The translations under genes and the position numbers were made by a program. Positions 8,856-64,000 of a stretch of 64,000 nucleotides of DNA are shown here, piece after piece. Under the pieces are notes generated by a model. The model ran no database searches, was not told where the DNA came from, and saw only the letters and a list, made by a program, of their open reading frames with translations. The DNA is taken from NCBI RefSeq assembly GCF_012689525.1, contig NZ_CP051514.1, forward strand, positions 2,232,001 to 2,296,000, read 5' to 3'. The stretch's first letter is position 1. Each line of letters starts with the position of its first letter. Source of the DNA: Paraburkholderia aromaticivorans. Lineage in GTDB: Bacteria; Pseudomonadota; Gammaproteobacteria; Burkholderiales; Burkholderiaceae.

Positions 8856-9241
8856 GGCCGAATTCCCGTCTTCCAATACGACTAAACGACCGTCCGTTGT
8901 ACCTGGAAAGCTGCCATATATGTCGCGCTGGGTCGACCGCCCGCAGCGCGTCGACTATGGAAGTTCGTCGTAGCGCGCCTCTCGCGGCCAGAAGCGGCCG
9001 AGGCCGCGTCAAAACACTTGATCTCGAGGTTTCGAGGGGTCGTTTCACCCTTGGCGCTACACGCCGAAGCCGGTGCAGGCCGTTCTCGCAAGCCGATTTT
9101 GGGAATGTTCGTTTTGACACGGCCTAGCCTTTGCACGCCGTCTTCTGGAACGGCAACAGTTCGGCGGGCGCGTTATACCTCGCCGTTCAGCCTTGGAGCC
9201 GAGACGAGCGAGCCAGCATGGGGCCTGTCTACCATCGGCGA
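8856..9241. other. Intergenic stretch without supported gene
   Basis: Short overlapping frames only. I see no motif, repeat or terminator that I can defend between the palindromic element and the end of the GH13 gene. Confidence 0.4.
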
Positions 9242-45292: not shown

Positions 45293-45662
45293 GCGGATCC
45301 GGCAGGTTCCGGCGCAGTTCAGCTGGATCGATCACCGGCTGGTGCGCGAGCGGTATATCGAGCGCTGTGACGCCTGTGCTGCCGCGCTGTACCTGTTTCT
45401 GGTCACCGTTGCTGATGCCCAGGGCCTGAGCTACTACGCGGACACGTCGCTTGCGCAGCGGCTGTCGATGGCCCCGGCGCGCCTGTCGATGGCGCGCAGC
45501 GATCTGGTGCGTATCGGCCTGATCGCCTGGCAAAGGCCGCTGTATCAGGTGCTGGCGCTCGATACACCGCCGCCGGAGTCGGCGCCGCCCGCGCCTGCTC
45601 AAGCCGACGTGGCGACCCATCTGGAGCGGCTGCACGCGGCGCTGGGCAAACGCCATGCTTGA
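45264..45662 (+). CDS. IS21 accessory ORF 2, winged-helix-like protein
   Basis: The 132-residue protein (VIKRVICPERIRQVPAQFSW) has the flow of a winged-helix domain with a recognition helix near residues 60-85 (YADTSLAQRLSMAPARLSMA, RSDLVRIGLIAW). It overlaps ORF 1 by 29 bp and istA by 8 bp, so it is likely translationally coupled. A role in regulation or target recognition is possible. Function is not known. Confidence 0.7.
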   Translation: MVIKRVICPERIRQVPAQFSWIDHRLVRERYIERCDACAAALYLFLVTVADAQGLSYYADTSLAQRLSMAPARLSMARSDLVRIGLIAWQRPLYQVLALDTPPPESAPPAPAQADVATHLERLHAALGKRHA

Positions 45663-47133: not shown

Positions 47134-47911
47134 ACACACCACCATGCACCAGCGCAAACCCGCCATCGATACGTTGCCTGCACAACTCACGGAACTACAC
47201 CTGAGCTACGTGCTGCAACATTACGAGGCACTGGCTGGCGACGCGGGCGCGCAGCACTGGTCGCATGTCGACTATCTGGCCCACCTGATCGAGGGCGAAG
47301 CGCATCGTCGCGAGGATCGTAGTATCGCCCGGCGCATCGCCCTGGCCCGTTTCCCGATACTCAAGACGCTCGACCAGTTCGAATGGAGCTGGCCCACCCA
47401 CATCAACCGGCTGCAGATCCAGAACCTGTTCCGGCTGAACTTCATCGAAGAGTCGGCTAACGTGATCTTCCTCGGCGGCGTCGGGCTCGGCAAGAGTCAC
47501 CTGAGTATTGCGCTCGGACATACCGCGTGCCTGCGCGGCTACCCGGTGCTCTTCGCTAACGCGGTGGATATCATTAACTCGGTGAACGCCGCCTATGCGC
47601 ATGGCGGCCTCAAACGCGAATTGCGCCGCTACGTCAAACCGCGCCTGCTTATTGTCGATGAACTGGGATATTTACCCATCGATAAACAGGGTGCCGACGC
47701 GCTGTTCCAGATCATCAGTCAACGATATGAAAAGAGCGCAACCATCATCAACTCCAATCGTGCCTTTAAACACTGGGCTGAGATCTTCAACCACGACACC
47801 ACGCTCACCTCCGCGTTGCTCGATCGCATCCTTCATCACGCCGAGACTGTCGTCATCGAAGGCAAAAGCTATCGGATGAAAGACCAGATCGACCCTGATC
47901 CTGCCGCTTGA
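47120..47911 (+). CDS. istB: IS21-family helper ATPase IstB
   Basis: The 263-residue AAA+ ATPase loads IstA on target DNA. Walker A is VIFLGGVGLGKSH (residues ~116-128), Walker B is LLIVDELGYLPID, and sensor residues lie in INSNRAFKHW. The N-terminal domain (LPAQLTELHLSYVLQHYEAL) is typical. It overlaps istA by 14 bp. Length matches the family. Confidence 0.94.
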   Translation: MTKAEHTTMHQRKPAIDTLPAQLTELHLSYVLQHYEALAGDAGAQHWSHVDYLAHLIEGEAHRREDRSIARRIALARFPILKTLDQFEWSWPTHINRLQIQNLFRLNFIEESANVIFLGGVGLGKSHLSIALGHTACLRGYPVLFANAVDIINSVNAAYAHGGLKRELRRYVKPRLLIVDELGYLPIDKQGADALFQIISQRYEKSATIINSNRAFKHWAEIFNHDTTLTSALLDRILHHAETVVIEGKSYRMKDQIDPDPAA

Positions 47912-49855: not shown

Positions 49856-50821
49856 TTACAGCGGAACGTGTCCTCCGTTCGGTGTTGCGTGGCGGGTTGT
49901 CCACGGACGGGCGGCGGGTCGGATATCACGACCACGACGCTGCCCGGCGGTGGGCAACCCGCGCCGCGATGGATTTTGTGTTTTTTCGTATTCCTGCTCG
50001 AATTCCATCGGCGAGCAGTAGCCCAGGCTGCTGTGCAGGCGACGGATGTTGTACCACCCCTCGATGAAGCGGAAGATCGCACGCCGGGCCTGGTCTCGCG
50101 TATCAAAGCACTCGCGCATCAGCAACTCTGCTTCCAGCGTGCCGAAGAACGACTCGCACATCGCGTTGTCATAGGCATCGCCGGCCGTGCCCATCGACGG
50201 TTGTACACCGGCTTCCCGGCAGCGACGTCCAAAGGCAATGGACGTGTATTGACAGCCTTGATCGGAATGTAGAATGACACCGTCATGGCGTCGTTGCTGC
50301 AGCGCCATGTCCAGCGCGCGCAACATCAGTTCCGTGTACAGGTGGCTCGACATGGCCCAGCCGACGATGCGCCGGCTGAACACATCGAGTACCACGGCCA
50401 GATACAGGAACCCTTCACTGGTCGGCACGTAGGTGGCGTCCGCCACCCACAATACGTTGCTGGCTTCGGCGCTGAAGTGCCGGCGCACCAGATCGGGCGC
50501 GCGCCGCGCTCCCGCGCGTTGGCGCGTGGTGAGCTTCCAGTGCCGCCGGCTTGCGCCACACAGACCGGCCATGCGCATCAGACGCGCCACGCGTTTGCGT
50601 CCCACATGTACCCCCTCGCGCGCGAGCTGCACATGAATGCGCGGCGCCCCGTAGGTGCCATGCGAACCCGCGTGCAGGGTACGGATGCGCGCGAGCAGTT
50701 GCGCATCACTGCAAGCCTGCTTCGACGCTTCACGCACCCGCCACGCGTAGTAGCCGCTGGTGGAGACCCGCAGCAGCCGCGCCATCGTGGCAATGGGCCA
50801 GCGAGCCTGGTTCGCCTTCAT
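49856..50821 (-). CDS. IS3-family transposase OrfB (integrase core)
   Basis: The 321-residue protein has the HTH_21 region (MKANQARWPIATMARLLRVS, GTYGAPRIHVQLAREG) and the rve DDE core. The first Asp is in VLWVADATYVPTSEGFLYLA, the second in ILHSDQGCQYTS and the Glu in NAMCESFFGTLEAELL. It overlaps orfA by 4 bp, so a -1 shift would normally fuse them. It is longer than usual at the C terminus (RRGLPTAGQRRGRD onward), reading toward the left terminal repeat. Confidence 0.92.
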   Translation of the reverse strand: MKANQARWPIATMARLLRVSTSGYYAWRVREASKQACSDAQLLARIRTLHAGSHGTYGAPRIHVQLAREGVHVGRKRVARLMRMAGLCGASRRHWKLTTRQRAGARRAPDLVRRHFSAEASNVLWVADATYVPTSEGFLYLAVVLDVFSRRIVGWAMSSHLYTELMLRALDMALQQRRHDGVILHSDQGCQYTSIAFGRRCREAGVQPSMGTAGDAYDNAMCESFFGTLEAELLMRECFDTRDQARRAIFRFIEGWYNIRRLHSSLGYCSPMEFEQEYEKTQNPSRRGLPTAGQRRGRDIRPAARPWTTRHATPNGGHVPL

Positions 50822-52018: not shown

Positions 52019-52723
52019 ATGAACCTCTTTAAGCGTTCGAAGCAAGACATCGCGCTCGCGAAGGCCCCCGGCCACTACAGCGAAGATGATCCCGAGAAGA
52101 TCATTTTCGACGTGAAGACGCGTCTCTTCGTAGAAGCGAACCACTGGAAGATCTTTGCCGCCGTCATGGCGGTGGTCGCCCTCGTTGCCGTTTCCACGCG
52201 CAATCCGCCTCCCTCAGTCATCAAGGCCTACGGCGTCTCAGCCGACACTGCCGGTAGCCCTGTGTTGCGCGAGCTTACGACCTACCAGCCGAACGCACTG
52301 GCGATCCGCGTTGCCATCAAGGAAACGACCCAGCGCTGGTTCACGATCGAGCCGGTCCTGTCCGGCGACATCAAGCACTCGCGCATGGCCAGCAACATCC
52401 GGGCCGTCCAACTGCAGATGGAAGGGAAGGCACAGTCATCGTTCGTCGAATGGCTGAAGAACGATGCCCCGTTTGAGGCGATCGCCTCTGACCCGAAGCT
52501 GACCCGTCAGGTGACCGTCACCAATGTCGCCTTGCTCGAAGACTCGACCGTCGTCGTGAACTTCACGACATCGACTTCACAAGGCGAAGCGGATCAACCC
52601 GTTGTCCAGAGATTCTCCCTGACGCTTCGGTACGAGGTCCAACCCCCAGCTTCGGACGCTGCACTGGGCTCCAATCCCTTCGGGATTTTTATCCCGTTCT
52701 ATACGATCGAGAAATCCGCATGA
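52019..52723 (+). CDS. VirB8/TrbF-like inner-membrane assembly protein
   Basis: This 234-residue type IV secretion component has a short cytoplasmic N terminus (MNLFKRSKQDIALAKAPGHY), one membrane helix at ~45-62 (IFAAVMAVVALVAVSTR) and a periplasmic VirB8 domain. The domain shows PSVIKAYGVSADTAG and ends with VQRFSLTLRYEV and NPFGIFIPFYTIEKS. Such proteins scaffold the inner-membrane complex. It is the first gene of the operon and overlaps the virB9-like gene by ATGA. Its upstream region holds the candidate operator. The ribosome binding site is weak. Confidence 0.88.
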   Translation: MNLFKRSKQDIALAKAPGHYSEDDPEKIIFDVKTRLFVEANHWKIFAAVMAVVALVAVSTRNPPPSVIKAYGVSADTAGSPVLRELTTYQPNALAIRVAIKETTQRWFTIEPVLSGDIKHSRMASNIRAVQLQMEGKAQSSFVEWLKNDAPFEAIASDPKLTRQVTVTNVALLEDSTVVVNFTTSTSQGEADQPVVQRFSLTLRYEVQPPASDAALGSNPFGIFIPFYTIEKSA

Positions 52724-53589
52724 TCTCCTTGACTCGCATTGCGGCGCCCATCGTCGCAGCGCTTGGTATGTCGCTGATTTTTGCAACCATGAGCGCGAAT
52801 GCAGCCGTGACCGAAAAGCATGGCGACATCGATCCGGTCGCTGCGAGCGACGGCGCGTCGGTCAATCCCGCGGGTCAGTTCAACGGCGGCGTCGATCCGG
52901 TAACGATGCCGAACGACGCACGTATGGCGGTTTTCACCTACTCGCGCGATCAGATTTTTCGCGTGATGACTGCGCCGCTCAAGACGACAACGATCGAATT
53001 TGCGGGTACTGAGAAACTGATCGCGGATCCAGCGATGGGCGACACGATCAGGTGGACGATCGACACGGACGGCGCCAACCACGTGTTCGTGAAACCGAAT
53101 CAGCCGGGCCTCATCAACACGCTTCACCTGTCTACGAATCTGCGCGAGTACGACATCACGCTCGTCTCGTCGCCTCTCGGCGGGCTCTTCTACCAGACCG
53201 TCCGTTTCAACTATCCGGAGTCCCTGATGGCGAAGGTGCGCGAGCACCAGCAAGCCAGTTCGCAAACCGATGCCTCCGCCGATGCAACAAATTCTGGCGC
53301 CCTGAACGTCTCGCCGGACAAGTTGAACTTCAACTGGGACGTCCACGGCGACGCCGCGTTCCGACCAGAAACAGTATTTGATGACGGCAAGTTCATCTGG
53401 ATGCGTATGCCTGCCAACGCACCGTACGCCGTTCCGATCATCAAGGATCACGGCGACAACGTTAGCCCGAACTTCAGCCGCCGCGGTCCGTACCTGGTCG
53501 TACAACAGATGGCCGACGAAATCGTGCTCCGCGCGAATCACGACGAGGTGAAGGTTAACCGTCGCCATAACGGCTTGTTCGGTCTCTGA
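52720..53589 (+). CDS. VirB9/TrbG-like outer-membrane core-complex protein
   Basis: The 289-residue periplasmic protein has a cleavable signal (IVAALGMSLIFATMSANA), an N-terminal CagX/VirB9 beta domain (ARMAVFTYSRDQIFRVMTAP, HLSTNLREYDITL) and the C-terminal VirB9 domain FRPETVFDDGKFIWMRMPAN, with GPYLVVQQMADEIVLR at the end. It overlaps virB8 by 4 bp. Normally virB10 would follow at once; instead a TnpB element begins 13 bp after the stop. The element is in the opposite orientation and may affect downstream expression. Confidence 0.92.
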   Translation: MISLTRIAAPIVAALGMSLIFATMSANAAVTEKHGDIDPVAASDGASVNPAGQFNGGVDPVTMPNDARMAVFTYSRDQIFRVMTAPLKTTTIEFAGTEKLIADPAMGDTIRWTIDTDGANHVFVKPNQPGLINTLHLSTNLREYDITLVSSPLGGLFYQTVRFNYPESLMAKVREHQQASSQTDASADATNSGALNVSPDKLNFNWDVHGDAAFRPETVFDDGKFIWMRMPANAPYAVPIIKDHGDNVSPNFSRRGPYLVVQQMADEIVLRANHDEVKVNRRHNGLFGL

Positions 53590-53602
53590 ACCGGAGTCAC
53601 AT

Positions 53603-53720
53603 TGACGTCCATCTCCCCGACCTAAAGGACGGGGATTCCCACTACCGGCGCTCGACGTCCCGAGCGGAGAATGTTCAAGGCAGCATTGGTATCGCGATCA
53701 TGCACAACACCACAGCTACA
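53603..53720 (-). ncRNA. Presumed omega RNA (reRNA) region at the tnpB 3' end
   Basis: In TnpB elements the guide RNA scaffold overlaps the 3' end of tnpB and the right end, and its guide is taken from the adjoining flank. Here that flank, on the minus strand, is ATGTGACTCCGG, the end of virB9. The scaffold hairpin at 53615-53634 is readable. The RNA itself is inferred from the family and not seen directly. Confidence 0.4.
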
Positions 53721-54674
53721 GCAAGTCCACTCCCTTATTCGCAAACCTGCGATACCTTTCGGCCGCGTCGCGCTGCCTTTCGACCCGCACGCCGAGCAGG
53801 TCTGGGAAGAACCTCTTTCGCTCACCTCTTCGAATGTGGCACCGTGCGCAATCGCTTTGTAGCGGAGCTTGTCTCGGAAGGACGACCAGGACGCGTCATA
53901 GACGCTCTTTGCCATCCTGGTTCTGGCGAGTCTGACGGCCGACACGTTGCCGACAGCAATGTAATCAAACCGGCGCACGATATCGAGTGCGAGCTTGTGC
54001 TGAAAATCGGCCCGAGCATTCGCAACCTTGGCGTGGCGCTTCGCGATGTGCCGTTTGTGCTTGCGGGCGCGCTGCACCTTCGCAAGCTTTCCGGCTGCAC
54101 GGCGACCAAACCGGTCATTGGGAGTTTTCTCGCCGTTGGACAGGGCGGCGAAGTCATGCAGCCCAAGGTCGATGCCCACACCGCTATCGATCTGGCGTGG
54201 GGGGACATCGGTGAGCTCCACCGCGATATTGAGGAACCAGTTGCCGCGCGCGTCCTGCGCGAAGCAGGTTCCGTCCTTGATCTTGCCATCGGGCAAAGGG
54301 CGGCTGCTGAACACGCGAAATGTATTGCCCGCAAACCGGAAAGCCTCGCCCTCGCGCTTAAGGTCGCGTCCCTTAAGTGGTACCCACCCGAGGGTTTTGC
54401 GGCCGCGATAGCGCAGGTACGGCCGCCTATGCTGGCTGCGCGACTTCGCATACTGCTCGCACGTCGCGTTGACCGTGCCCGAGTGGATGCCGAGTTCCTT
54501 GCTACTGCCGGTCGTCAGCACGTTGAGGTCGAAGCCTGTTGGCCACTTCCTGCCCCACTTGAGCGCGTGTTTCTGCGTGTCGTTGCAGAAATTCCAGACG
54601 TAATTCACCGCGCGGCTTTGCTGGGTCAGCAAGCCGTTCAGCGATTTCACCCGGTAGCGGTAAACACGAATCAT
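53622..54674 (-). CDS. tnpB: TnpB RNA-guided nuclease
   Basis: The 350-residue protein begins MIRVYRYRVKSLNGLLTQQS at 54674. An upstream in-frame Met at 54758 lies in the left end and is less likely. RuvC-I is GVGIDLGLHDFAALSNGE with its Asp. The usual RuvC-II Glu site reads FDYIAVGNVSAVRL, with Gly where Glu is common. A Glu is present in VSERGSSQTCSACG, the place of the rearranged Glu of some TnpB/Fanzor-related proteins. The zinc-ribbon is CSAC/CCSC, and RuvC-III HDRDTNAALNIL has the last Asp. No stop or frameshift was found. Confidence 0.9.
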   Translation of the reverse strand: MIRVYRYRVKSLNGLLTQQSRAVNYVWNFCNDTQKHALKWGRKWPTGFDLNVLTTGSSKELGIHSGTVNATCEQYAKSRSQHRRPYLRYRGRKTLGWVPLKGRDLKREGEAFRFAGNTFRVFSSRPLPDGKIKDGTCFAQDARGNWFLNIAVELTDVPPRQIDSGVGIDLGLHDFAALSNGEKTPNDRFGRRAAGKLAKVQRARKHKRHIAKRHAKVANARADFQHKLALDIVRRFDYIAVGNVSAVRLARTRMAKSVYDASWSSFRDKLRYKAIAHGATFEEVSERGSSQTCSACGSKGSATRPKGIAGLRIREWTCCSCGVVHDRDTNAALNILRSGRRAPVVGIPVL

Positions 54675-54763
54675 GCCGTCTATTTTAACGTCAGAATGCC
54701 GCCTGCCGGCGGCGCCCCGTTCACTCCCCGTCCTGAAGGGCGGGATTTCTCGGAGCAAATCTG

Positions 54764-56053
54764 ATGAGCACGCCCAACGATCAGAAAGGCTCGTTCTTCA
54801 AAGGGAAGACCCCGCGCAACGCGATCCTGGGGGTTGGCTTGATCGCGGCCGTCGTGACAGGCGGTCTCGCCATTTACTACGAGGCCAGACAGGACGCGGA
54901 AGCACAAGCCGATGCAGCGGCCAGGAAAACGAAGCAGGAACAGTTCAGCCGCAAACAGGACAACGGCAATCAGGATTTCAATTCCATTATCAATCAGCAG
55001 CAGTCGGCCGCTGATCTGAAGGCACAGAATGCGCAACGCGCTCGCCCAGCAAACACCAATACGCCGAGCGCAGACAGTTTCGTCGATCCGGCAAATGGCA
55101 GTCGCGGTAACAGAACCGTGAGCCCGGGTGGCGATCAGGACGGCATCTATTCGGCCGGCGTGTTCAAGGGCGGTGGTCATCAGATCCAGGGCAAGCTCGG
55201 CACCAACGGCGCTGCCGGTCTCGCTGGCAATCTTCCGGCGCTCGGCGGGGGAGGGGGCGTGCCGACGCCACAGGACATGATGGCAGCGCGGGCGACGGCA
55301 GGCCGCAGTGCCCAGGAGGCGATAGCAGCGGTGCAGAGCCAGCTACAGGGGGCCCGGGACCAGGCAGGCGCTGGCAGTTCAGCTGCTTCGCAGCAAAGCG
55401 ATCTGGGATTCCTGCGCACAGCAAAAACGAGTTCGCAGAGCGGCGCGGGCTTCTCAACGGCAACCTTCGTCGGTCAGGAAAGAAGCTGCTCGCTCGCACC
55501 TCCGAATCACATTCCAGTCCTGACGATGGAGAAGCTGAATTCCGACCGTCCCGGCACCGCGTCGCTGCTCGTCACCGAAGACGTGTACGACAGCGTGGCC
55601 GGAACGTGCCTGATGATTCCCAAGGGCTCAAAAATCGTAGCGCCTTACTCGTCGGATATTCGTGTCGGTGCGGAGAGCATCATGATCGCGGGCACCGAAT
55701 TGCGCCTGCCCAACGGGAAGGAAGTGCCGTTGAACGGGGCCGCCGGTGCGGATCAGGACGGCGAAGCCGGGCTCTCTGGAGACGTCAACAACCATTTCTT
55801 CAAGATTTTCGGCGCATCATTCCTGACCGCCATTCTGCTGGGCGCCTTTGACAAGAGCTCGACCGTCTCATCGACAGCGACTCCCTACGGTGTCACGCAG
55901 GTCGGCGATACGGCGGGGCAGGTTGCGGCGCAAACATCGCAGTCGATTCTCTCGCGCTACCAGAGCATTCCGCCGACGATCACCGTCGAGCCGGGCACGC
56001 GCTTCATGATCAAGGTGAACCAGAACATTCACCTGGAGCCGTACCATGGCTAG
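54764..56053 (+). CDS. VirB10/TrbI-like core-complex protein
   Basis: The 429-residue protein spans the envelope: cytoplasmic N terminus, a membrane helix at ~19-39 (ILGVGLIAAVVTGGLAIYY), a Gln/Ala-rich periplasmic linker and the C-terminal TrbI/VirB10 beta-barrel domain. The last shows SLLVTEDVYDSVAGTCLMIP, KGSKIVAPYSSDIRVG, GTELRLPNGKEVPL and a terminal VEPGTRFMIKVNQN. GGAG lies 9 nt before the ATG, just at the border of the TnpB element. So it can be translated separately. Its stop overlaps the next gene by 8 bp. Confidence 0.92.
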   Translation: MSTPNDQKGSFFKGKTPRNAILGVGLIAAVVTGGLAIYYEARQDAEAQADAAARKTKQEQFSRKQDNGNQDFNSIINQQQSAADLKAQNAQRARPANTNTPSADSFVDPANGSRGNRTVSPGGDQDGIYSAGVFKGGGHQIQGKLGTNGAAGLAGNLPALGGGGGVPTPQDMMAARATAGRSAQEAIAAVQSQLQGARDQAGAGSSAASQQSDLGFLRTAKTSSQSGAGFSTATFVGQERSCSLAPPNHIPVLTMEKLNSDRPGTASLLVTEDVYDSVAGTCLMIPKGSKIVAPYSSDIRVGAESIMIAGTELRLPNGKEVPLNGAAGADQDGEAGLSGDVNNHFFKIFGASFLTAILLGAFDKSSTVSSTATPYGVTQVGDTAGQVAAQTSQSILSRYQSIPPTITVEPGTRFMIKVNQNIHLEPYHG

Positions 56054-56867
56054 GCTCGCCGCACTAACCCTCGCGTTGGCGGGCATTGGGGCGACTGCCG
56101 CAGCGTCGGCAGGAACCGGACCGGTGATCCAGGACATCATCAGCCCCGACTCTATCGTCCTCGTCAAGGACGGGACCAGGGCGATCACGCCGCTCACCGG
56201 CAAGCCCGTGTACTTCTGCGGGATGCGTAGCTTTAAGGACTGGGCACGGCCTCTTCTCGGGCAGGCGGTCTACGCCGACAAGTCCGGCAAGCTGACCGTG
56301 GTGATCGACTCGAGGCCAGTCGAGCTCGAGAAGCTGCTCGTCAGCGCCGGCTGGCTCCTGCCGGGCACTCTGGGCGACGACGCGCAGGCCGCGATCACCG
56401 AACATCGCGGCGGCTGGAACTGTGCGGGCAATCAGGCCGCTTTCGATCTTTTGCACGGCACGGTCGACCCGAAGGTGCTCGCCGGAATCGCGATGAACGA
56501 GTCGAACTACGCCGGTCGCCCCTGGCCATGGACGCTCAACGTTGCAGGTCGCAGCTATTTCTTCAAGTCGCGCGAAGGGGCATATCGCGCGATCACTTAC
56601 CTGCTGTCGCAGGATCGTTGTGATTTCGATGTTGGGCTTATGCAGGTGAACTGGTGTTACCACCACCAGCGGTTCGTCTCGCCCTGGGATGCGCTGAAGC
56701 CGAGCTCAAACATTCAGGTTGCCGAATCGATTCTCAACGAGTACTACCGCAAGACCCATTCTGTCGCGCAGGCGGTGGCTTATTACCACAGCGCCAACCC
56801 TGAACCTGGCCGTGAATACCTTGCCCGGTTCGTTCAACACCTTGATCAACTGGAGGCTGGCTCGTGA
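56046..56867 (+). CDS. Lytic transglycosylase with an N-terminal SNase-like domain
   Basis: The 273-residue exported protein has a signal peptide (LAALTLALAGIGATAAASAG). Residues ~30-115 (PDSIVLVKDGTRAITPLTGK, VVIDSRPVELEKLLVSAGWL) resemble a degenerate staphylococcal-nuclease-like OB fold with no catalytic Arg/Glu set visible. The C-terminal half is a SLT lysozyme domain: catalytic Glu in GIAMNESNYAG and DVGLMQVNW. It would open peptidoglycan for machine assembly. It overlaps virB10 by 8 bp. The N-terminal domain's role is unclear; it may bind nucleic acid, wall or another subunit. Confidence 0.75.
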   Translation: MARLAALTLALAGIGATAAASAGTGPVIQDIISPDSIVLVKDGTRAITPLTGKPVYFCGMRSFKDWARPLLGQAVYADKSGKLTVVIDSRPVELEKLLVSAGWLLPGTLGDDAQAAITEHRGGWNCAGNQAAFDLLHGTVDPKVLAGIAMNESNYAGRPWPWTLNVAGRSYFFKSREGAYRAITYLLSQDRCDFDVGLMQVNWCYHHQRFVSPWDALKPSSNIQVAESILNEYYRKTHSVAQAVAYYHSANPEPGREYLARFVQHLDQLEAGS

Positions 56868-58108
56868 TGCGAATTGCCAGAAACGTCGCCATCGCTTGCG
56901 CGTGCATGGCGGGTGCGTTATGCCACGCGGCCAATACCGATCCATTCGACTTCGATTACTCGATTATTGGCTCGAACGCAGACCGTCCGGAATCGGTCTT
57001 TAACGACGGCTCGCAAACCTTCATCCAGCCCCGAAGCGACCAGAGCATTACCACTGACGGCGGTCACGTCGAAGGCCCTTACGTCGTGATCGACGGCACG
57101 CCCGATACGATCGAGTTCAGGGTCAATAACCGGCCAGCGAGCGCCCACTGGAAGAGCGCGAACTCGTTCATCGGTGGGCCGTCGTCGCCGTCGCAATTCC
57201 GCGGCGATCAATCGGCCGGTTTCGCTGGCTTTAGTGATCATCTCGTCATTGTCGGGCAGGTCTCCGCGATCGAACCGGTGCGCGGTATCAGCAGCACCAT
57301 GACCATTAGCAGTCTTGTCAGGGCACTGGTGCCGCAAGGCTGGAGCGGTTCGGCCGAGAAGGATATCGACCTGACGAACCAGGTGGCCTTCACGACGCAG
57401 GACGGCGAAAGCTGGATGCAGGCGCTGGATCGCCTCATGAACCGGGACGGGCTTTTCGCGTCAGTCGATTTTTCGAGCCACCATGTGCGCCTCGAACGAT
57501 CGGCGCCCAAGTCGATCGCGGTTGCCTATGCGCCGAACACCTCGGAATCCGGGCCGGTCGCGTCGAGCCATTCGCCCGCTCCCCGGGAAGAGGTCAAAGG
57601 TTCGGCTAACTATCAGTCGCAACTGGTGAGCGTGTTTGGTGCTCAGGCGATCCGCGACGCGGACGACTCGCACATCCAGATCCGTTTCGCAACGAAGCCG
57701 ACGGGCGACGTGACTTTCCGGAATCTTGCCGGGGATTCCCTCCACCCCCACTGGGATCGCGACAGCAACGTCGTCACGATCGACCGGGCTCGCGTTCTCG
57801 TTGTCTCGGACGGAAAGAACAAGGTCGAGATCGGACGGCAGACCGGCGAGGTATTCGACTTTGAATCCAGTAACGGGGCGCATCTCCAGGCGGCGTTCGA
57901 GGCGGATGGTGCGACCTACTTCCGGTTCGCGCCCACGGTTATTCAGGCGTCGGTCACCGATGCAGGAGGGCAGGGCAAGGGCGAGCAAAGAGGCGCGCTG
58001 TACAGGTTCGACGGCACGGGCGACCACTTCGTTGCGACTGGGGACGGCGGGACCACGACGGTTACGCGTCACGCGGCAACCCACTTTTACGAAAGGACAC
58101 CGTCATGA
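56867..58108 (+). CDS. Hybrid envelope protein with VirB9-like and TcpQ-like modules
   Basis: The 413-residue periplasmic protein begins MRIARNVAIACACMAGALCH (ATG at 56867; GTG at 56864 also possible). Residues ~35-95 (RPESVFNDGSQTFIQPRSDQ, GPYVVIDGTPDTIEFRVNN) resemble the VirB9 C-terminal domain. Residues ~145-215 (LVRALVPQGWSGSAEKDIDL, SWMQALDRLMNRDGLFASVD) read like a TcpQ/PilL-type domain. Residues ~330-400 (FEADGATYFRFAPTV, GALYRFDGTGDHFVATGDGG) again resemble VirB9. Such a layout could tie a VirB9/10 core to a pilus secretin. It lies between two transglycosylase genes with 4-bp overlaps. The module calls come from pattern reading. Confidence 0.6.
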   Translation: MRIARNVAIACACMAGALCHAANTDPFDFDYSIIGSNADRPESVFNDGSQTFIQPRSDQSITTDGGHVEGPYVVIDGTPDTIEFRVNNRPASAHWKSANSFIGGPSSPSQFRGDQSAGFAGFSDHLVIVGQVSAIEPVRGISSTMTISSLVRALVPQGWSGSAEKDIDLTNQVAFTTQDGESWMQALDRLMNRDGLFASVDFSSHHVRLERSAPKSIAVAYAPNTSESGPVASSHSPAPREEVKGSANYQSQLVSVFGAQAIRDADDSHIQIRFATKPTGDVTFRNLAGDSLHPHWDRDSNVVTIDRARVLVVSDGKNKVEIGRQTGEVFDFESSNGAHLQAAFEADGATYFRFAPTVIQASVTDAGGQGKGEQRGALYRFDGTGDHFVATGDGGTTTVTRHAATHFYERTPS

Positions 58109-58572
58109 AGCGGATGTCGACTATCACGTTGTTTGTCGTTATAAGTACTACTTACGGAATACCGAGCGTTGCGCATGCCGACTGCCTTGATGAGGCAGCG
58201 GTCTACTTCGACCTTGATCCGGTGCTGCTGCACGCGATCGCCAGGCACGAATCGAACATGCGTCCTGACGCGGTGAACCGGAATCGCAACGGCAGCTTCG
58301 ACATCGGCCTCATGCAGATCAATTCGGTGTGGTTGCCCACACTGCAGGAAAAGGGCATTACGGCCGAATCGCTCAGGAATCCCTGCGTGAACGGTTATGT
58401 CGGCGCATGGATTCTCCGCTCGAACGTGGAACGTTTCGGGCAAACGTGGCAGGCAGTTGGCGCTTACAACGCGAGCTCTTCCGACAAGCAGTTGAAGTAC
58501 GCCAATTGCGTCTACAGCATCTGGACACGACTTCGAAACAGGGCTTTCGAACAACGAGCGAGCGAGCAATGA
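58105..58572 (+). CDS. VirB1/PilT-like lytic transglycosylase
   Basis: The 155-residue protein has a signal peptide (ending near SVAHA), then a SLT domain with catalytic Glu in IARHESNM, followed by SFDIGLMQINS and a later VGAYNASSSD. The type is found with VirB systems (VirB1) and as PilT in R64-like type IVb pilus loci. ATGA overlap with both neighbours shows tight coupling. It is the second muramidase of the operon. Confidence 0.9.
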   Translation: MKRMSTITLFVVISTTYGIPSVAHADCLDEAAVYFDLDPVLLHAIARHESNMRPDAVNRNRNGSFDIGLMQINSVWLPTLQEKGITAESLRNPCVNGYVGAWILRSNVERFGQTWQAVGAYNASSSDKQLKYANCVYSIWTRLRNRAFEQRASEQ

Positions 58573-59360
58573 AACATCACATCCGAACCACAATCTGCCA
58601 CGCTGCCTTCGGAGTCGCGGCGGTCATGGCCATCAGCGCACTCCCGGCGGCAAGCGCATACGCCGGCAATTCGGGCGTCTTCCAGCCGAATGACGATCAG
58701 TTCGGTGCAGGCTGGCAAGTGCTTCAGGCACCCACTGGTCCCGCACCGACTGCACCCGTTGCCGTTGCACCGATCGCTGCGCCCGCGGCGGTAGCAGCGC
58801 CGGTCGCCGACGAGCCCCCAAGGTACACGGCACAGGTCGAGCCGGGTAAGCCCGTCGGCGTGCCGAGCGCCTCGCAGCCCTCGAAGGGATCGACTCCGCT
58901 TGCCGCCGTGCCTGTCGCGCTTGTCGGGACGCCGAAGCCGCCCCAACCTGCGCCGGTTTCCCTTGTCGCAGCACTCGCGCCGGCTGTGATTCCCGCGGCT
59001 GACAAGTTGCCGACCGCGAACAGCCTGTCGAGCGGGGAAACGGTGATGGCTGTGGCGACCTCTGACGCAACGCCAGCCGCGTTGCCAGCCGCGGCGCCAG
59101 TCGGCCATACGTTCGACCTGCAGGCCGGAATTTCCCTCGAACAGCAGTTGCAGGCGTGGGCACACGACGCGGGCTGGACGCTGACGTGGAATCTGCCCGA
59201 CGACTGGATTGTCCCAGGCAACAAATCGTATGGCATTGACTTCGCTCTGGCCACAGAGCACGTGATCGAGCAGGCGGCAAACAACGGCGCGGATATCCGC
59301 GGTGACCTTTATCCCGACAACCGCTCGCTGGTTGTCCATCAGGCGGGCGCGTTCCGATGA
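58569..59360 (+). CDS. PilL/TcpQ-like periplasmic pilus-assembly protein
   Basis: The 263-residue product starts MKHHIRTTICHAAFGVAAVM with a signal peptide. A long Pro/Ala-rich linker (residues ~50-175) is followed by a C-terminal TcpQ domain: LQAGISLEQQLQAWAHDAGW, TLTWNLPDDWIVPGNKSYGI and NRSLVVHQAG. TcpQ-like proteins stabilise and localise the secretin in type IVb pili. It overlaps the secretin gene by 4 bp, as expected for such a partner. The upstream frame extension is not used. Confidence 0.8.
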   Translation: MKHHIRTTICHAAFGVAAVMAISALPAASAYAGNSGVFQPNDDQFGAGWQVLQAPTGPAPTAPVAVAPIAAPAAVAAPVADEPPRYTAQVEPGKPVGVPSASQPSKGSTPLAAVPVALVGTPKPPQPAPVSLVAALAPAVIPAADKLPTANSLSSGETVMAVATSDATPAALPAAAPVGHTFDLQAGISLEQQLQAWAHDAGWTLTWNLPDDWIVPGNKSYGIDFALATEHVIEQAANNGADIRGDLYPDNRSLVVHQAGAFR

Positions 59361-61078
59361 TTCATAGAAAGCAGATTTTCACGCCGACGCTTCGCGCGGG
59401 CGCATGTCTTCTGGCGATGGCCATGAACTTCGCCGGCTGCGCTGTTCCGACCATCCACCAGGAACAGACTGACATCGGCAAGGCGGCGGGTTCCGCGGCT
59501 GATACGGCGGCCCCGGTCGGTCCAGTGTTCCAGGTTCACGACGGTTCGTGGCTACTCGGCGAGAAGATCCAGGCCAGCAAGCCCCAGCCGGAGATTTACA
59601 ACCGGATCGTGGATTTCAATTCGGGTAGCTCATCGCCGACACTCTCAGACATCGTCTCGTACCTGTCGGAAGTCGTCCACGTTCGCGCCGAAGTCGATTC
59701 GTCGGCAACCAGTATGGCTGCGGCTACGCCGGGGCCACTCCCGGCCGCGCCGATGGCGATCAATCTGACTCAGCGGTCGGCGGGGCACATACCGGACCTC
59801 CCAGCAGGCCTTGCTACCAGTTTCGCCGGTGGCACAGGTTTGGCCGCCGGCGGGCCGTCGGGCGGCCCAATCCGCTATCACGGCCAGCTGCGCGGTTTCC
59901 TCAACGTGGTGGATGGCCGCTTCGGTGTGTGGTCGCACTACGTCGATGGAACGGTGAGCTTTTACAGGACCGAGACGCGTACCTTCACGATCGGCAGTCT
60001 GCCCGACCAGTCCTCGATGTCAGGCTCTATCTCGACGAGTGATTCGAGCAGTGGATCGGGTTCTGAGTCTTTGGGTAGTTCAGGCTCCATCACGCCGGCC
60101 GCGTCACCGGGCGGCATCGGCGGCGGCTCGGGTGGTAGCTCGGGCGGAAGCAGCGGACAGCAGATGAGCCTCGCCGTCGGTGTGAGCCCGTGGGCAAGCC
60201 TGAAGGATACGGCACAGTCCATCGCGGGTCAGGGCGCTCAGGTCACGGTGGATCCGAACCTTGGCACGCTAACAGTCACCGGATCGCCCCCGCAATGCGA
60301 TCGCGTCGAAGCGCTGACGAACAACCTCGCTGCCATGTTCGGCAAGCAGGTGGCCATCGATGTCCACGTGTACGAAGTCCGCACCACGGGCGAGGAAAAT
60401 TACGGTATTGACCTCGCGCTCGCGCTGAAGACGAAATCCGGTCACACAAGCGCGGGCTCGTCGACCGTCTCCATCCCGACGGTATCGAGTTCAGCGACGC
60501 CGATGACATTCGGCGCCACGATCCTGCAAGGTCCTTTCGCTGGCACCGGCGCGACGATCCAGGCACTGTCCACGATGGGCGCTGTCTCGGAAGTCGTGTC
60601 GCGCTCGGGCATCACGCAGAACGGCAAGGTGCTGGCCCTGCAATCGGCGCAGTCCGTTGGCTACGTTTCTTCGTCTACGACGACCCAAACCGCCTCGGTT
60701 GGTAGTTCAACCGCGATCTCAACGAGCACGCTGGTGCCTGGCTTCACGAGTTCGTTCCTGCCGAAGGTGGTCAACGGTCGCATCCTGATGGCGTTCGACA
60801 TGACGCTCTCGGACCTGCTGAGCCTGCAAACCTTCACATCGGGCACTGGAACGGGGCAGTCCAGCGTGGAGCTGCCGACGATGCAGATGGCTCGCTTCGA
60901 ACAGTCCGTGACGCTGAAACCGGGCGAAACGCTGGTGTTGACGGGCATGCGTCAACAGTCGGCTTCTTCTACCAACAACGGTGTCGGTGTTCCTCAGAAC
61001 TTTCTGCTCGGCGGTGGTCTGGATGCGTCGCACCAGCAGACCATCCTCGCCGTAGTCATCACCGCGCGCATTCTTTAA
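59357..61078 (+). CDS. pilN: PilN-type secretin lipoprotein (type IVb pilus outer-membrane channel)
   Basis: The 573-residue outer-membrane secretin has a lipobox MAMNFAGCAVP. A Gly/Ser-rich insertion (SSGSGSESLGSSGS, GGSGGSSGGSSG) lies at about 225-270. An N1-like domain follows (VDPNLGTLTVTGSPPQCDRV) and then the C-terminal secretin domain: VAIDVHVYEVRTTGEENYGI, TLKPGETLVLTGMRQQ and GLDASHQQTILAVVITARI. This fits R64 PilN/BfpB, which form the pilus pore. It overlaps the pilL-like gene and is followed after 13 bp by pilP. Confidence 0.92.
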   Translation: MIHRKQIFTPTLRAGACLLAMAMNFAGCAVPTIHQEQTDIGKAAGSAADTAAPVGPVFQVHDGSWLLGEKIQASKPQPEIYNRIVDFNSGSSSPTLSDIVSYLSEVVHVRAEVDSSATSMAAATPGPLPAAPMAINLTQRSAGHIPDLPAGLATSFAGGTGLAAGGPSGGPIRYHGQLRGFLNVVDGRFGVWSHYVDGTVSFYRTETRTFTIGSLPDQSSMSGSISTSDSSSGSGSESLGSSGSITPAASPGGIGGGSGGSSGGSSGQQMSLAVGVSPWASLKDTAQSIAGQGAQVTVDPNLGTLTVTGSPPQCDRVEALTNNLAAMFGKQVAIDVHVYEVRTTGEENYGIDLALALKTKSGHTSAGSSTVSIPTVSSSATPMTFGATILQGPFAGTGATIQALSTMGAVSEVVSRSGITQNGKVLALQSAQSVGYVSSSTTTQTASVGSSTAISTSTLVPGFTSSFLPKVVNGRILMAFDMTLSDLLSLQTFTSGTGTGQSSVELPTMQMARFEQSVTLKPGETLVLTGMRQQSASSTNNGVGVPQNFLLGGGLDASHQQTILAVVITARIL

Positions 61079-61091
61079 GGGGAACAGCGTC

Positions 61092-61583
61092 ATGAACACT
61101 TACCAAAGAACAATCGCGATCGCGCTTGCGACGCTTGTCTCTGGAGGGGCGCTGGCGGCTTCCCCCAGCGCGACACCGGGCTCGATGTCGACGGCACCCG
61201 TGCCTGTGTCTGAAATTCCGGAACTCCTGGCCAATGAGCAGGCGCAGACGCCACTACTGATTGCGAAAGCGACGAACGCAAAGCTTCGCGCCGATATCAA
61301 GCAGCTGGAACAAGGTCCGAATGCAGCGGGTGGGACGGCGCCGGCCGCCGGCCTGACGAGCCTGATCCAGCCACTCGCGAAGTCGCGCAAGGACCCAGGG
61401 GACGTTGCCCTCGTATCAGTTGGCGGTGCTGACGGTTCGTACCGTGCGTACCTTAGCGTGGACGGCCGTACCGTCATCGCCGAAGTTGGTGACACGATTG
61501 ACAACGGCTGGAAAGTCCTGGCGATCGGCAGCTCCAGCGTCCGGCTTTCGAACGGCAAGCAACAGCGTACGCTGAGGATTTGA
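61092..61583 (+). CDS. pilP: PilP-like type IVb pilus biogenesis protein
   Basis: The 163-residue protein has a signal peptide (IALATLVSGGALAASPS), a helical linker and a C-terminal beta domain, GSYRAYLSVDGRTVIAEVGD then GWKVLAIGSSSVRLSNGKQQ, which matches the PilP/PilP-type type IV pilus inner-membrane-complex module. It would link the secretin to PilO. It follows the secretin by 13 bp and precedes pilO by 3 bp. Confidence 0.85.
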   Translation: MNTYQRTIAIALATLVSGGALAASPSATPGSMSTAPVPVSEIPELLANEQAQTPLLIAKATNAKLRADIKQLEQGPNAAGGTAPAAGLTSLIQPLAKSRKDPGDVALVSVGGADGSYRAYLSVDGRTVIAEVGDTIDNGWKVLAIGSSSVRLSNGKQQRTLRI

Positions 61584-61586
61584 TCA

Positions 61587-63305
61587 ATGGCTCATGTCCT
61601 GACACTCCCTGGCGTCAAAGGTCTGTTCGCAGTCGGCATGTCCTGGCGCCATGAAGAAACCGTGCCCAGGGCAAAGGCCTTGCGTGAACTCGCAGCCAGT
61701 ATGGGCAAGTGGGGCACGGTCTATACGGCGAGCGGCGGTGGGGTGCAGGTCGGCTTCTGTGACCCGATCGAGGGGCTGAAGAACCCGGGCAAGGCGCGCT
61801 CGCTGGCGGCGGCTGTCGCGGAGGAATTTACCCAGCCGTGGCGCGGTATCTTCGAACTGGGCCACGGTCTCTACTGGTATGTCGCGGTTCGGGACGGCCA
61901 GGAAATTCTGAACGATGGCGATGTCGTCGGTACCGAGGATGACATGGCTCGCGTTTGGGCAGAGCATGACCGATTGCCCGAGTGGAAGACCGAGATCACG
62001 GACAAGCCGATCGACATCATCGCAGATGCGGTCAGGTCCAAGAGCAAGGTGCCACGCCTGCGAGATCTCAGTTATGACCCGGCGATGCTCTATATCGTAG
62101 CGGGCGCGGCCGGTCTGCTGGGGCTGGCTGTTGCGGGCGTGGGGATGTACATCCACCACAGACATCAGGAAGAGATCATGCAGCAGCAGTCGCTTGCCGC
62201 GCGCGCTGCAGCGCTATCGGCCAAAGCTGCGGCCGATGCAAAGTTGGCGATCATGCCCTGGGCGTCTTTGCCGCTGACGAACGACGTGTTCAGCGCGTGT
62301 CAGACCCAGTGGGCTCAGCAGGCCCTGTCGATCAAAGGCTGGGTGCTTAACACCTGGACGTGTCGTGCTGACGCCGCTGGCATCACGATCGCGACGAAGT
62401 GGACGCGCAACGGAGGTGTCGCCAGTGACGCGCCGGGCAGGCTGGACGATGGCGGCGAGTTCTCTACACACGAGACCGTGATGGCGCAGACGTTTGGCGG
62501 CCTTAACCAGGACGCCCTGACGGGCGAGGCAGCACCGCGGGCAATGTACACGCTGGTGCAGACGTATGGCATCAAGATGCAGCTGGTAAAGCCAGTGGAG
62601 ATGGTTGCGAAGGAAACCCCGGATGTGCCGAACGCGGCTCCGCCCCCGCCCTGGCTGTCGTACCCGATGACGATGGAGCTTCATGCACCCCCGTGGGTCG
62701 AGATCGGGGCCGCGCAGTTCGATCATGTGACCGGCCTGCGTATCTCGAGTATCGGATACGACAGCGACAAGCGGGTGTGGACCACGATGGGCACGTTGTA
62801 CGGTATTCGCGATACGACGGTTGCGTTAGGGGCTGCGACTGCGGCTGCAGCTGCGGTTGCGGCTTCCGGCGCGGTTCCGACGATGATCGCATCGCCCGGG
62901 CCGGCTGCAACGCCGGTTCTGGCGTCGGCTCCAGTCGCGGTTCCTGCGGCGGTTCCTCCGGTGCCTTCATCGTCGGTCGTCAGCGGGCCGGTTACCCCGG
63001 CAAGTACGCCTGCCGTCGCGGTAACCCGGCCAGCAGCAGGTCAGCCGAAGGCGACCGACACGAGCCTGACGATGGTTGGGCCGGCGCCAAAACCGGCGGC
63101 GGTCGCACCGCTGACGTCGGCAGCCTCGCCGGCTGCTGCCCCGTCCACCACCGCCGGTAACGCGCAGGGTGGCATGGGAGCGCTTGCGCTTGTACAGGCG
63201 CATCACAACGCGAACCAGGGCCCGGGCGCGGCTGTCGCGGGTTCACCATCGACGCAGGCGGTGAGACCGAGCCTGTCGGCTATCCCGCCTGGTGTCGGGA
63301 ATTGA
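61587..63305 (+). CDS. pilO: PilO-like (PilO2) inner-membrane pilus protein
   Basis: The 572-residue protein starts MAHVLTLPGVKGLFAVGMSW, with a cytoplasmic domain (GTVYTASGGGVQVGFCDPIE, LGHGLYWYVAVRDGQEILND) typical of PilO2 of R64-type pili. A membrane helix lies at ~170-190 (LYIVAGAAGLLGLAVAGVGMY), followed by a periplasmic part with a very Ala/Pro-rich C terminus (VAASGAVPTMIASPGPAATP onward). It belongs to the inner-membrane platform. Gene order secretin, pilP, pilO, ATPase is close to R64 (N, O, P, Q), with O and P exchanged. Confidence 0.85.
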   Translation: MAHVLTLPGVKGLFAVGMSWRHEETVPRAKALRELAASMGKWGTVYTASGGGVQVGFCDPIEGLKNPGKARSLAAAVAEEFTQPWRGIFELGHGLYWYVAVRDGQEILNDGDVVGTEDDMARVWAEHDRLPEWKTEITDKPIDIIADAVRSKSKVPRLRDLSYDPAMLYIVAGAAGLLGLAVAGVGMYIHHRHQEEIMQQQSLAARAAALSAKAAADAKLAIMPWASLPLTNDVFSACQTQWAQQALSIKGWVLNTWTCRADAAGITIATKWTRNGGVASDAPGRLDDGGEFSTHETVMAQTFGGLNQDALTGEAAPRAMYTLVQTYGIKMQLVKPVEMVAKETPDVPNAAPPPPWLSYPMTMELHAPPWVEIGAAQFDHVTGLRISSIGYDSDKRVWTTMGTLYGIRDTTVALGAATAAAAAVAASGAVPTMIASPGPAATPVLASAPVAVPAAVPPVPSSSVVSGPVTPASTPAVAVTRPAAGQPKATDTSLTMVGPAPKPAAVAPLTSAASPAAAPSTTAGNAQGGMGALALVQAHHNANQGPGAAVAGSPSTQAVRPSLSAIPPGVGN

Positions 63306-63313
63306 AGTCCGTT

Positions 63314-64000
63314 ATGGGCATTCTTGAGAGCCTCACGGTCAAAAAACTGGTGCCGACGCGCGAGGGCGGCGCTGCGGTGCCAGCTCGCGAGGCGTCACCA
63401 GCGTCCACCACCGATGGCGCCGAACGCCCGGTCCTGCAAAGTGGCGTAATTCCGCCTAGACAGGGCGGGACGGTACCCGCGCGTCAGGTGGAGGTCGAGA
63501 AGGTTCACAGGATTCCTCTGGCGCCGGCATTGCTGCAGGAACACGTCATTTATCCCGAGACGACGGGCGCACCCTTTGCTGACGTCGCCGTGACGATCGG
63601 CGTGCTGACGCCCGAGCGGGCGAGCGAGTTGCAGCGCCTGCAAGTTGCCACGGGCATGACGTCAACGATGATTGCCCGCGAGATGATGAGCATCGCTCAG
63701 GAAGAGATTGATGCGGTGCTGCAGTTTCGGGCTTGCACGATCTACGTCGATGCGCGTCACGTCGGACAGAGCGCCTACCAGACCTGGCGGGACGATATTC
63801 GCCGGCTCGACCATAGCGTGCGTTTCGAGGAAGTCGATGCCCGTGTGATTGAGGAAATGCGGGCGACGAAGACCTCGATGCAGGTCGCGGAAGCGTCGAA
63901 AGGACAGGGCAACCTCAACAACGTAAAGCAGATTCTCTCGTATTGCGCGACGATCGGCGGCAGTGACCTGCATGTGCTCCAGCGGGAAGACCATACGGAG
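63314..64000 (+). CDS. pilQ: PilQ-type pilus-assembly ATPase (partial, runs off the window)
   Basis: The frame from the ATG at 63314 stays open to the right edge (229 codons visible) and starts MGILESLTVKKLVPTREGGA. Residues ~85-130 (VTIGVLTPERASELQRLQVA, IAREMMSIAQEEIDAVLQF) read like a N-terminal type II/IV secretion ATPase domain. Near the edge SYCATIGGSDLHVLQREDH matches the SDLH motif that opens the GspE/PilT-type ATPase core. The Walker motifs would lie beyond the window. It would power pilus extrusion, next to pilO by 8 bp. Confidence 0.8.
   Translation, partial: MGILESLTVKKLVPTREGGAAVPAREASPASTTDGAERPVLQSGVIPPRQGGTVPARQVEVEKVHRIPLAPALLQEHVIYPETTGAPFADVAVTIGVLTPERASELQRLQVATGMTSTMIAREMMSIAQEEIDAVLQFRACTIYVDARHVGQSAYQTWRDDIRRLDHSVRFEEVDARVIEEMRATKTSMQVAEASKGQGNLNNVKQILSYCATIGGSDLHVLQREDHTE

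Follow-up and report, generated by a model that had tools for sequence, protein, structure and literature searches.

Gene organization of the locus

This study concerns a locus of Paraburkholderia aromaticivorans in which core-complex genes of a VirB-type type IV secretion system (T4SS) and genes of a type IVb pilus share one operon. The locus lies in a stretch of 64,000 nucleotides, referred to as the window (C1:2232001-2296000), of a 10.84 Mb genome comprising four contigs. At a probability of roughly 0.8, we consider it to be the module for core complex and pilus in a plasmid-borne conjugation system of MOBH/VirB type, which includes a type IVb mating pilus of its own. At the junction of core and pilus genes lies a 414-aa protein, placed between two lytic transglycosylases (SLT1 and SLT2) and given the working name CHIM, used only here.

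Searches with Pfam and NCBIfam profiles gave the plus-strand order VirB8-VirB9-VirB10-SLT1-CHIM-SLT2-TcpQ-PilN-PilP-PilO2-PilQ, which bears out the single operon of VirB8-9-10, two transglycosylases and PilN/PilP/PilO2/PilQ seen in a preliminary description of this DNA. The three genes of a VirB-type (MPF_T) core are all present with Pfam scores above cut-off: virB8 (52019..52723, 234 aa; PF04335, 84.3 bits), an intact virB9 (52720..53589, 289 aa; CagX PF03524, 148.8 bits, with TIGR02781 VirB9 at 121.6 bits, below its cut-off) and virB10 (54764..56053, 429 aa; TrbI PF03743, 163.8 bits). An outer core of the Dot/Icm or IncI type (MPF_I) is absent, as the window VirB9 matches CagX only, whereas TraN of plasmid R64 matches DotH (PF12293). 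SLT1 (56046..56867, 273 aa; PF01464, 24.6 bits, above cut-off) is a VirB1 candidate. CHIM (56864..58108) is followed by SLT2 (58105..58572, 155 aa; PF01464, 73 bits), the counterpart of R64 PilT at 31% identity, and by a TcpQ-domain protein (58569..59360, 263 aa with the start used; PF10671, 73.2 bits), the counterpart of the C-terminal half of PilL. Several TcpQ-like proteins had been described here; only one carries the TcpQ domain, and the 414-aa protein is instead a VirB9/PilL-type chimera. The pilus genes proper comprise the secretin gene pilN (59357..61078, 573 aa; TIGR02520, 248 bits, below the cut-off of 288), pilP (61092..61583, 163 aa; TIGR03021, 54.4 bits, above cut-off), pilO2 (61587..63305, 572 aa; PF06864, 136.8 bits) and the assembly ATPase gene pilQ. 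The latter is cut by the window end (63302..64000), encodes 640 aa in total, ends at L004:2224 (numbering in which position 1 is window 63001) and scores 157.3 bits with T2SSE PF00437 over the full reading frame.

Beyond the window, the operon extends on the same strand into PilR (L004:2228-3268), a candidate pilin at the PilS position (L004:3544-4056), assigned by position with no Pfam match and no R64 PilS match, a second PilT/PilB-family ATPase (L004:4075-5187), a 159-aa protein, PilV with a Shufflon_N domain (L004:5678-6964) and a 205-aa protein. The ATPase may be a retraction motor, and an ATPase gene at a similar place was also observed in pTY921B and Robbsia p3. Along the genes from VirB8 to PilQ, the successive spacings measure -4, +1174, -8, -4, -4, -4, -4, +13, +3 and -4 nt, in keeping with the mostly overlapping genes reported earlier. 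Across the whole, presumably co-transcribed, operon, neighbouring genes overlap by 4-8 nt or are separated by gaps of at most 18 nt; the only wider gaps are one of 275 nt ahead of the pilin and that of 1174 nt between virB9 and virB10. A search for inverted pairs that might mark a shufflon beside pilV returned only six weak pairs within 3.5 kb.

In BLASTP against 16 R64 proteins, matches were obtained for PilN (7e-32), PilO2 (6e-6), PilP (5e-4), PilQ (4e-38), PilR (2e-25), PilV (7e-25) and PilT (SLT2, 2e-24). R64 (IncI1), too, combines a T4SS with a type IVb pilus, on one conjugative plasmid. However, its DotI/H/G-type core genes lie in a separate tra region, while VirB-type core genes stand inside the pilus operon of the window; R64 also possesses an undivided PilL, PilM, PilU and a site-specific integrase by pilV. 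In the window, PilL is not a single lipoprotein, its N-domain being found in CHIM and TcpQ being a gene of its own.

The second T4SS half on the same contig

The preliminary description had noted that VirB4, VirB6 and a relaxase are missing from the window and had suspected a dependence on genes to the right. The absence is confirmed and the suspicion was well placed, as all of these genes lie rightward on the same contig, in a set of VirB11-2-3-4-5-6 candidates, MOBH-type relaxase and TraD beginning 98 kb after virB8. Two VirB4 matches to profile PF03135 were obtained in the genome. One is on C1 (2,384,081-2,386,588, with an open reading frame), the other on the 143-kb contig C4, where a separate, second VirB set is located (G000:C4:64001-84000, L006). 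Around the C1 VirB4 are VirB11, a TrbC/VirB2 pilin, a VirB3/TrbD-like protein, a protein at the VirB5 position, two VirB6-like proteins, a MOBH-type relaxase and an SXT-type TraD. VirB4 (PF03135), VirB6 (PF04610), the VirB2 pilin (PF04956, 39.6 bits) and the relaxase (PF07514, MOBH) score above cut-off, and TraD reaches 695 bits with TIGR03743. Below cut-off are VirB11 (TIGR02788, 231 bits against 250), the VirB3 candidate (PF05101, 20.5 against 23.9; TrbD NF010395, 29 against 60) and the more specific MobH profile for the relaxase (NF041494, 64 against 200); the protein at the VirB5/TrbJ position matches DUF4141 only. The two VirB6/TrbL-like genes stand in tandem (L047:7394-8455 and 8528-9718).

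The pilus operon ends ~80 kb before virB11 starts, and PRTRC D, PRTRC ParB and PRTRC ThiF genes are found between the halves. PRTRC genes also separate the halves in P. acidisoli p1, and a ParB and a ThiF-type gene do so in pBVIE02. Since the genome holds only two VirB10 genes, one each on C1 and C4, VirB8-10 of the window are the likely core for the C1 set.

Domain composition and variation of CHIM

CHIM was characterized through hhalign, an AlphaFold model and its PilL homology, its CagX score of 20.4 bits being below cut-off. Residues ~22-100 resemble the C-terminal domain (CTD) of VirB9 by hhalign, residues 126-214 form a PilL-N/N0 domain homologous to the N-terminal half of R64 PilL, residues 253-327 form a beta domain in the AlphaFold model, and residues 328-405 adopt a second VirB9-CTD fold by the model and a fold search. 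The folds of the middle and last domains rest on the model, because a sequence search of the PDB with CHIM gave no relative (best E 0.12). The chains matched in the fold search, their identity verified by sequence, were TrwF, VirB9, DotD and the TcpQ-family lipoprotein 9u5s_R, and comparison of the middle domain with the TcpQ alignment of the same loci gave an hhalign probability of only 3%. The best match to CHIM, 99% identical, is labelled Paraburkholderia domus. CHIM is not a plain second VirB9, a candidate ruled out by its PilL-N domain; it looks like a fusion of a core part (VirB9) and a pilus part (PilL) at the core-pilus junction. At the sequence level the TcpQ alignment, for its part, has weak matches to N0 structures of Xanthomonas VirB7 (6gyb_a, E 0.018; 3ov5_A, E 0.008), a hint that TcpQ and T4SS N0 domains may be akin.

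The composition of CHIM varies among relatives. In the pTY921B form, the first VirB9-type domain and both domains at the C-terminal end are retained, with a linker lacking any match at the place of the PilL domain. In Azonexus, the CHIM-like gene after virB10 (L060:6745-8019, minus strand), annotated as a DotD/TraH family lipoprotein, is a VirB9-CTD x DotD fusion, having the first domain followed by a C-terminal DotD domain (PF16816, 30.5 bits, above cut-off), and the PilL-N domain is located in the TcpQ protein. In five Paraburkholderia/Burkholderia VirB loci (L013, L014, L017, L018, L021), virB10 is followed only by a 144-160-aa VirB9-CTD-like protein (L013:10558-10992, for example), and the flanks examined there gave no PilN or PilO2 match. 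From pTY921B, Azonexus and these five loci it follows that a spare VirB9-CTD repeatedly stands after virB10 and that N0-type domains were joined to it at least two times, namely PilL-type in Burkholderiaceae and DotD-type in Azonexus. All this speaks for CHIM as a structural part of the outer core, and it shows as well that N0 need not imply contact with a pilus.

Distribution and layouts of the system

By tblastn, 66 plasmid records out of 72,556 contain a relative of CHIM, and in 55 the match covers 80% or more of the protein. The 66 records belong to Burkholderia (30), Cupriavidus (19), Paraburkholderia (10), Caballeronia (4), Robbsia (2) and Azonexus (1). The same mixed order, sought as proposed in other Burkholderiaceae, recurs in annotated plasmids of Burkholderia, Cupriavidus, Paraburkholderia and Robbsia, so the mixed locus is no chance neighbourhood. 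The comparison with VirB4 covers 60 of the 66 CHIM records and 47 of 60 listed VirB4 rows; the other 13 rows, at 26-33% identity, are from Azonexus, Thioalkalivibrio, Rhodoferax, Polaromonas (two), Hydrogenophaga (three), Paraburkholderia (one) and B. glumae (four). Among the matches listed, CHIM and VirB4 occur together in 45 records, duplicates included (pHG1 twice, pMOL28-sized CH34-type plasmids three times), and their distances, taken from upper match coordinates, are accurate to ~2 kb.

Three layouts can be distinguished. The divergent one (18 of 45, all Cupriavidus; pHG1 and pMOL28 were viewed) has CHIM and VirB4 ~7.0-8.4 kb apart, and the collinear one (2 of 45, both B. contaminans) 7.6-9.0 kb apart. 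In the split layout (25 of 45, from Burkholderia, Paraburkholderia, Caballeronia and Robbsia), VirB4 lies on the same strand 47-101 kb downstream; the window, with ~96 kb, is of this type. In B. contaminans LMG 23361, TraI, TraD, VirB and Pil genes all run in one direction, a single hypothetical gene excepted; CHIM seems to be broken there (tblastn finds it in two pieces, with a coding sequence of 231 aa). Azonexus has, in one direction, MobH, TraD, VirB11-2-3-4-6-8-9-10, the CHIM-like gene, TcpQ and Pil genes, and in pTY921B the VirB, CHIM and Pil genes are collinear, with MobH and TraD divergent. Because the linkage persists through the three layouts, the two halves are best understood as one system, and this is the main argument. 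The idea of an unrelated T4SS split by recombination was ruled out, as the same two halves travel together in all three.

Within the genus, 144 genomes were surveyed, the query genome included. Full-length CHIM occurs in 37 (5 of 42 CHIM genomes, G124, G107, G099, G034 and G029, were set aside as partial or broken) and the cognate VirB4 in 32 (4 of 36, G066, G007, G047 and G107, were set aside as distant, at 28-32%). Both are present in 30 genomes, CHIM only in 7 and VirB4 only in 2 (Fisher p 5e-22, kinship between genomes ignored). In two relatives, VirB4 has one in-frame TGA (G073:C84:39596-42103 and G048:C17:68044-70503), reflecting a pseudogene or a sequencing error.

Exchange of pilus cassettes

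Core and pilus blocks differ in their relationships. Over VirB9-VirB10-SLT1-CHIM-SLT2, identity to the window is 49-55% for nine (Para)Burkholderia/Robbsia loci and 40-43% for five Cupriavidus/Ralstonia-type loci. Over PilN-PilQ, the same nine loci reach 21-24%, with 55% for pHG1 and C. laharis and 48% for R. pickettii. P. polaris is near the window in both blocks (85% in the core, 92% in PilN-PilQ), while pMOL28 and L012 combine a Cupriavidus-type core with a different pilus cassette (20-22% to the window). Trees of the two blocks disagree accordingly (16 taxa, five with stop-to-stop frames, compared without a topology test). CHIM goes with the core (48-52% against 32-38% identity), TcpQ and later genes go with the cassette, and for SLT2 the identities do not discriminate between the two (57-60% with most (Para)Burkholderia loci, 56-66% with those of Cupriavidus/Ralstonia). 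The sequences thus show that core and CHIM are kept while pilus cassettes swap between lineages. In P. fungorum, a related cassette was found with no virB gene annotated within the 31.7 kb viewed.

Comparison with known systems

The mixed gene content is already in print for B. terrae BS001 and pMOL28, and is real and more than a chance neighbourhood. The pMOL28/pHG1/pRALTA backbone of Cupriavidus megaplasmids has, like the window, VirB8-9-10, SLT, CHIM, SLT, TcpQ and the secretin-to-pilin order; pMOL28 and pHG1 also carry VirB11-2-3-4-5-6-TraI-TraD, as does the window's contig. The halves are adjacent and divergent there but split in the strain studied here, and the pMOL28 pilus cassette differs, with 20% identity over PilN-PilQ. 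The accessible part of the CH34 genome paper names a pMOL28 "pil locus", mentions a pMOL28 conjugation frequency, asks whether this is a sui generis conjugative system and leaves its function, including "secretion", open (PMC2864759). For B. terrae BS001, the available sections describe a T4SS-II with virB8-9-10, two lytic transglycosylases, pilL, TcpQ and pulD/E/F, and a T4SS-III with virB4, traG, relaxase, virB6 and trbJ/D/C/B without virB10 (PMC4122924); presented there as two separate systems, they are read here as two halves of one.

PAPI-1 of Pseudomonas aeruginosa likewise ties a type IVb pilus to conjugation, and according to the part of a T4SS review of December 2025 that was available, its pilus is essential whereas that of R64 augments transfer in liquid (PMC12857230). 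There, only VirB4 and VirD4 are clear T4SS homologues of PAPI-1 (PMC12857230); the present system is not of that type, as the window encodes VirB8-10 and the contig other VirB homologues besides. Xanthomonas citri VirB7 carries, like CHIM, an N0 domain on an outer-membrane core component of a VirB T4SS, and in the accessible text no pilus genes are involved (PMC3093366), while here N0 sits on a VirB9-type protein and is homologous to PilL. In the portions of the literature within reach, subscription papers being mostly outside the search and novelty thus unproven, we found neither a description of the two clusters as the two halves of a single machine nor a report of a fusion of VirB9 with PilL such as CHIM. 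Searches on pHG1 with type IV pili, conjugation and VirB, and on TrbG with type IVb pili and Cupriavidus/Paraburkholderia, returned nothing. A search on VirB9, PilL and fusion in conjugation listed no paper that bears on it, judged by titles and opening lines of abstracts, and the parts seen of PMC4465626, PMC3826726, PMC13046425 and PMC8628078 contain nothing on this locus.

Mobile elements and neighbouring genes

Between virB9 and virB10 lies an insertion of ~1.17 kb (53590..54763), where P. polaris (L007) has ~15 nt. It contains, on the minus strand, a TnpB (IS605 OrfB-like) gene (53622..54758; PF07282 and PF01385 above cut-off). No operon gene is broken by it, and transcription from virB10 onward may be affected. 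Three tnpB genes (Pfam OrfB_IS605, Cas12f1-like TNB) occur near both T4SS halves, at window 53622-54758, L033:13397-14515 and L032:8120-9364. Left of virB8, at a place where plasmid relatives have par/rep genes, are IS21 istA/istB (window 45655-47911), a transposase gene that we take to be of IS3 type (window 49856-50821) and other genes.

After the pilus operon, a CAP-domain protein and an FlhC-family regulator (L004:9657-10853, minus strand; PF05280, 34 bits, above cut-off) are encoded on the opposite strand. The regulator is annotated likewise in L024, L029, L030, L053, L055 and L057, and adjoins MobH in Azonexus (L060). By analogy with other MOBH elements, it could be a transfer activator like SetCD/AcaCD.

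Proposed function and alternative explanations

The module belongs to a conjugation system of Burkholderiaceae megaplasmids, including pHG1, pMOL28 and pBVIE02. By family membership, VirB8-9-10, the VirB11-2-3-4-5-6 candidates, the MOBH-type relaxase and TraD would form a DNA-export channel, and the PilN-PilP-PilO2-PilQ-PilR-pilin-PilV set, judging by gene content, a predicted type IVb pilus. Such a pilus would find and pull in recipients, aiding mating as the R64 thin pilus does or being essential as in PAPI-1. The VirB9 domains and the place after virB10 suggest that CHIM is probably part of the outer-membrane core complex; its PilL-derived domain suggests that it may contact the pilus secretin complex. 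Of the earlier proposal that both kinds of parts build one machine, one system, probably for mating, can be retained, given the conserved linkage. The CHIM fusion lends the single envelope machine, in which the pilus may be anchored on the VirB core, a basis in sequence. The proposed uses in DNA uptake or secretion received no support in this analysis. Nor was there support for the earlier view that VirB8-10 are foreign to a conjugative gene set: relatives have a full VirB/MOBH set with these proteins as its core, which is part of what the preliminary description had named as a refutation. As ordinary conjugative parts they run in the same direction as that set in B. contaminans, pTY921B and Azonexus, and divergently from it in pHG1 and pMOL28.

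Several observations weigh against this interpretation. The co-occurrence of CHIM and VirB4 may partly be co-residence on one plasmid, and no close VirB4 was found in 15 of 60 listed CHIM plasmids and 7 of 37 CHIM genomes. The 15 records include two of B. glumae, where VirB4 is maybe merely unlisted, and five B. cepacia plasmids of near-equal length, three labelled ATCC 25416. In the one of these that was viewed, from ATCC 25416 (L052:22176-25850), the pilus operon ends after pilN and PRTRC genes follow directly; the VirB4 and MOBH profiles match nothing on it. Three of the 15 plasmids (L053, L055, L056) have virB8-10, CHIM and pilus genes with unbroken annotated coding sequences and neither VirB4 nor MOBH by profile search. 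Absence by profile PF03135 is not absolute, however, since in pTY921B a VirB4-like gene detected by tblastn escaped it. The extension past position 64,000 did supply pilR, pilV, VirB4 and a relaxase, with a pilin candidate by position only, but PilU is not in the locus: no prepilin peptidase (A24) lies near it, the three in the genome being elsewhere. Sequence support for VirB9-CTD in the last CHIM domain is weak (best E 0.04), and Foldseek with the CHIM model gave no match at E <=0.001 (best 4e-3, R388 VirB9). The PilL-type domain is not universal either, being without a match in pTY921B and replaced by DotD in Azonexus.

Plasmids with the full mixed locus and no VirB4/MOBH profile match would suit an explanation in which VirB8-9-10 work for the pilus or for a secretion system, with a separate gene set for conjugation, as would the low dN/dS (0.03-0.12, 8 genes) of B. 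multivorans L056, which lacks VirB4, relative to pBVIE02, and the "secretion" left open in the part seen of the CH34 paper (PMC2864759). We regard this as improbable, given that a cognate VirB4 accompanies CHIM in 30 of 37 genomes, that virB8-10 lie downstream of virB6 in the same direction in three relatives, and that pBN3 and B. multivorans seem to have lost VirB4 recently, with short branches to VirB4-bearing relatives. It is somewhat less unlikely, yet still unlikely, that the locus in this strain is the decaying remnant of an integrated plasmid broken by insertion sequences. The TnpB insertion inside the operon, the IS21 and presumed IS3-type genes in place of par/rep genes, and the ~96 kb between CHIM and VirB4, compared with 47-67 kb in 22 of 25 split relatives, would fit such decay. 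However, the VirB4 frame is open, and in the comparison with P. polaris all 12 operon genes examined are intact and show purifying selection, with dN/dS of 0.05-0.32 in 12 of 12 (Nei-Gojobori; 0.05 for virB8; PilR over 284 codons only).

How closely the conjugation channel and its mating pilus are joined is a separate matter. Odds are about even that the operon encodes two distinct machines, as in R64, namely a VirB T4SS and, without contact to it, an accessory adhesion pilus of type IVb that is regulated together with it for mating; CHIM would then be a core part with a borrowed PilL domain as an extra ring, like N0 of Xanthomonas VirB7 or DotD in Dot/Icm. In keeping with this, lineages have exchanged the cassette but retained core and CHIM, which makes a highly specific fit of CHIM and pilus less likely, and the pTY921B and Azonexus forms indicate that N0 can serve the core alone. 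What speaks for contact is that N0 in the window's clade is homologous to the pilus protein PilL, whose other half is the separate TcpQ gene. A more tentative, and rather doubtful, proposal is that CHIM is a physical adaptor, its VirB9-type domains in the VirB outer-membrane ring and its PilL-derived N0 docking the PilN/TcpQ secretin complex. Cassette swapping, the pTY921B form and the N0 precedents are counter-evidence to a contact between CHIM and the secretin; the Xanthomonas VirB7-N0 precedent in particular makes the adaptor less likely, and a purely core role of CHIM more likely.

Significance

How type IV pili and conjugative T4SSs cooperate, as in R64 and PAPI-1, is a standing question, and the part seen of the December 2025 review treats the pilus-T4SS link of PAPI-1 as a model to test (PMC12857230). 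With a fusion of VirB9 and PilL at the conserved junction of core and pilus, a single gene becomes available for testing a physical link in laboratory hosts (C. metallidurans, C. necator). Recognizing the split into two halves also corrects annotation, as P. acidisoli p1 and Robbsia p3 (in which the relaxase profile score is under cut-off) are typed non-mobilizable in PLSDB yet carry both halves. If CHIM were indeed an adaptor, the type IVb pilus and the DNA-export channel would be joined at a single envelope station, and on retraction the pilus would draw the recipient to the channel.

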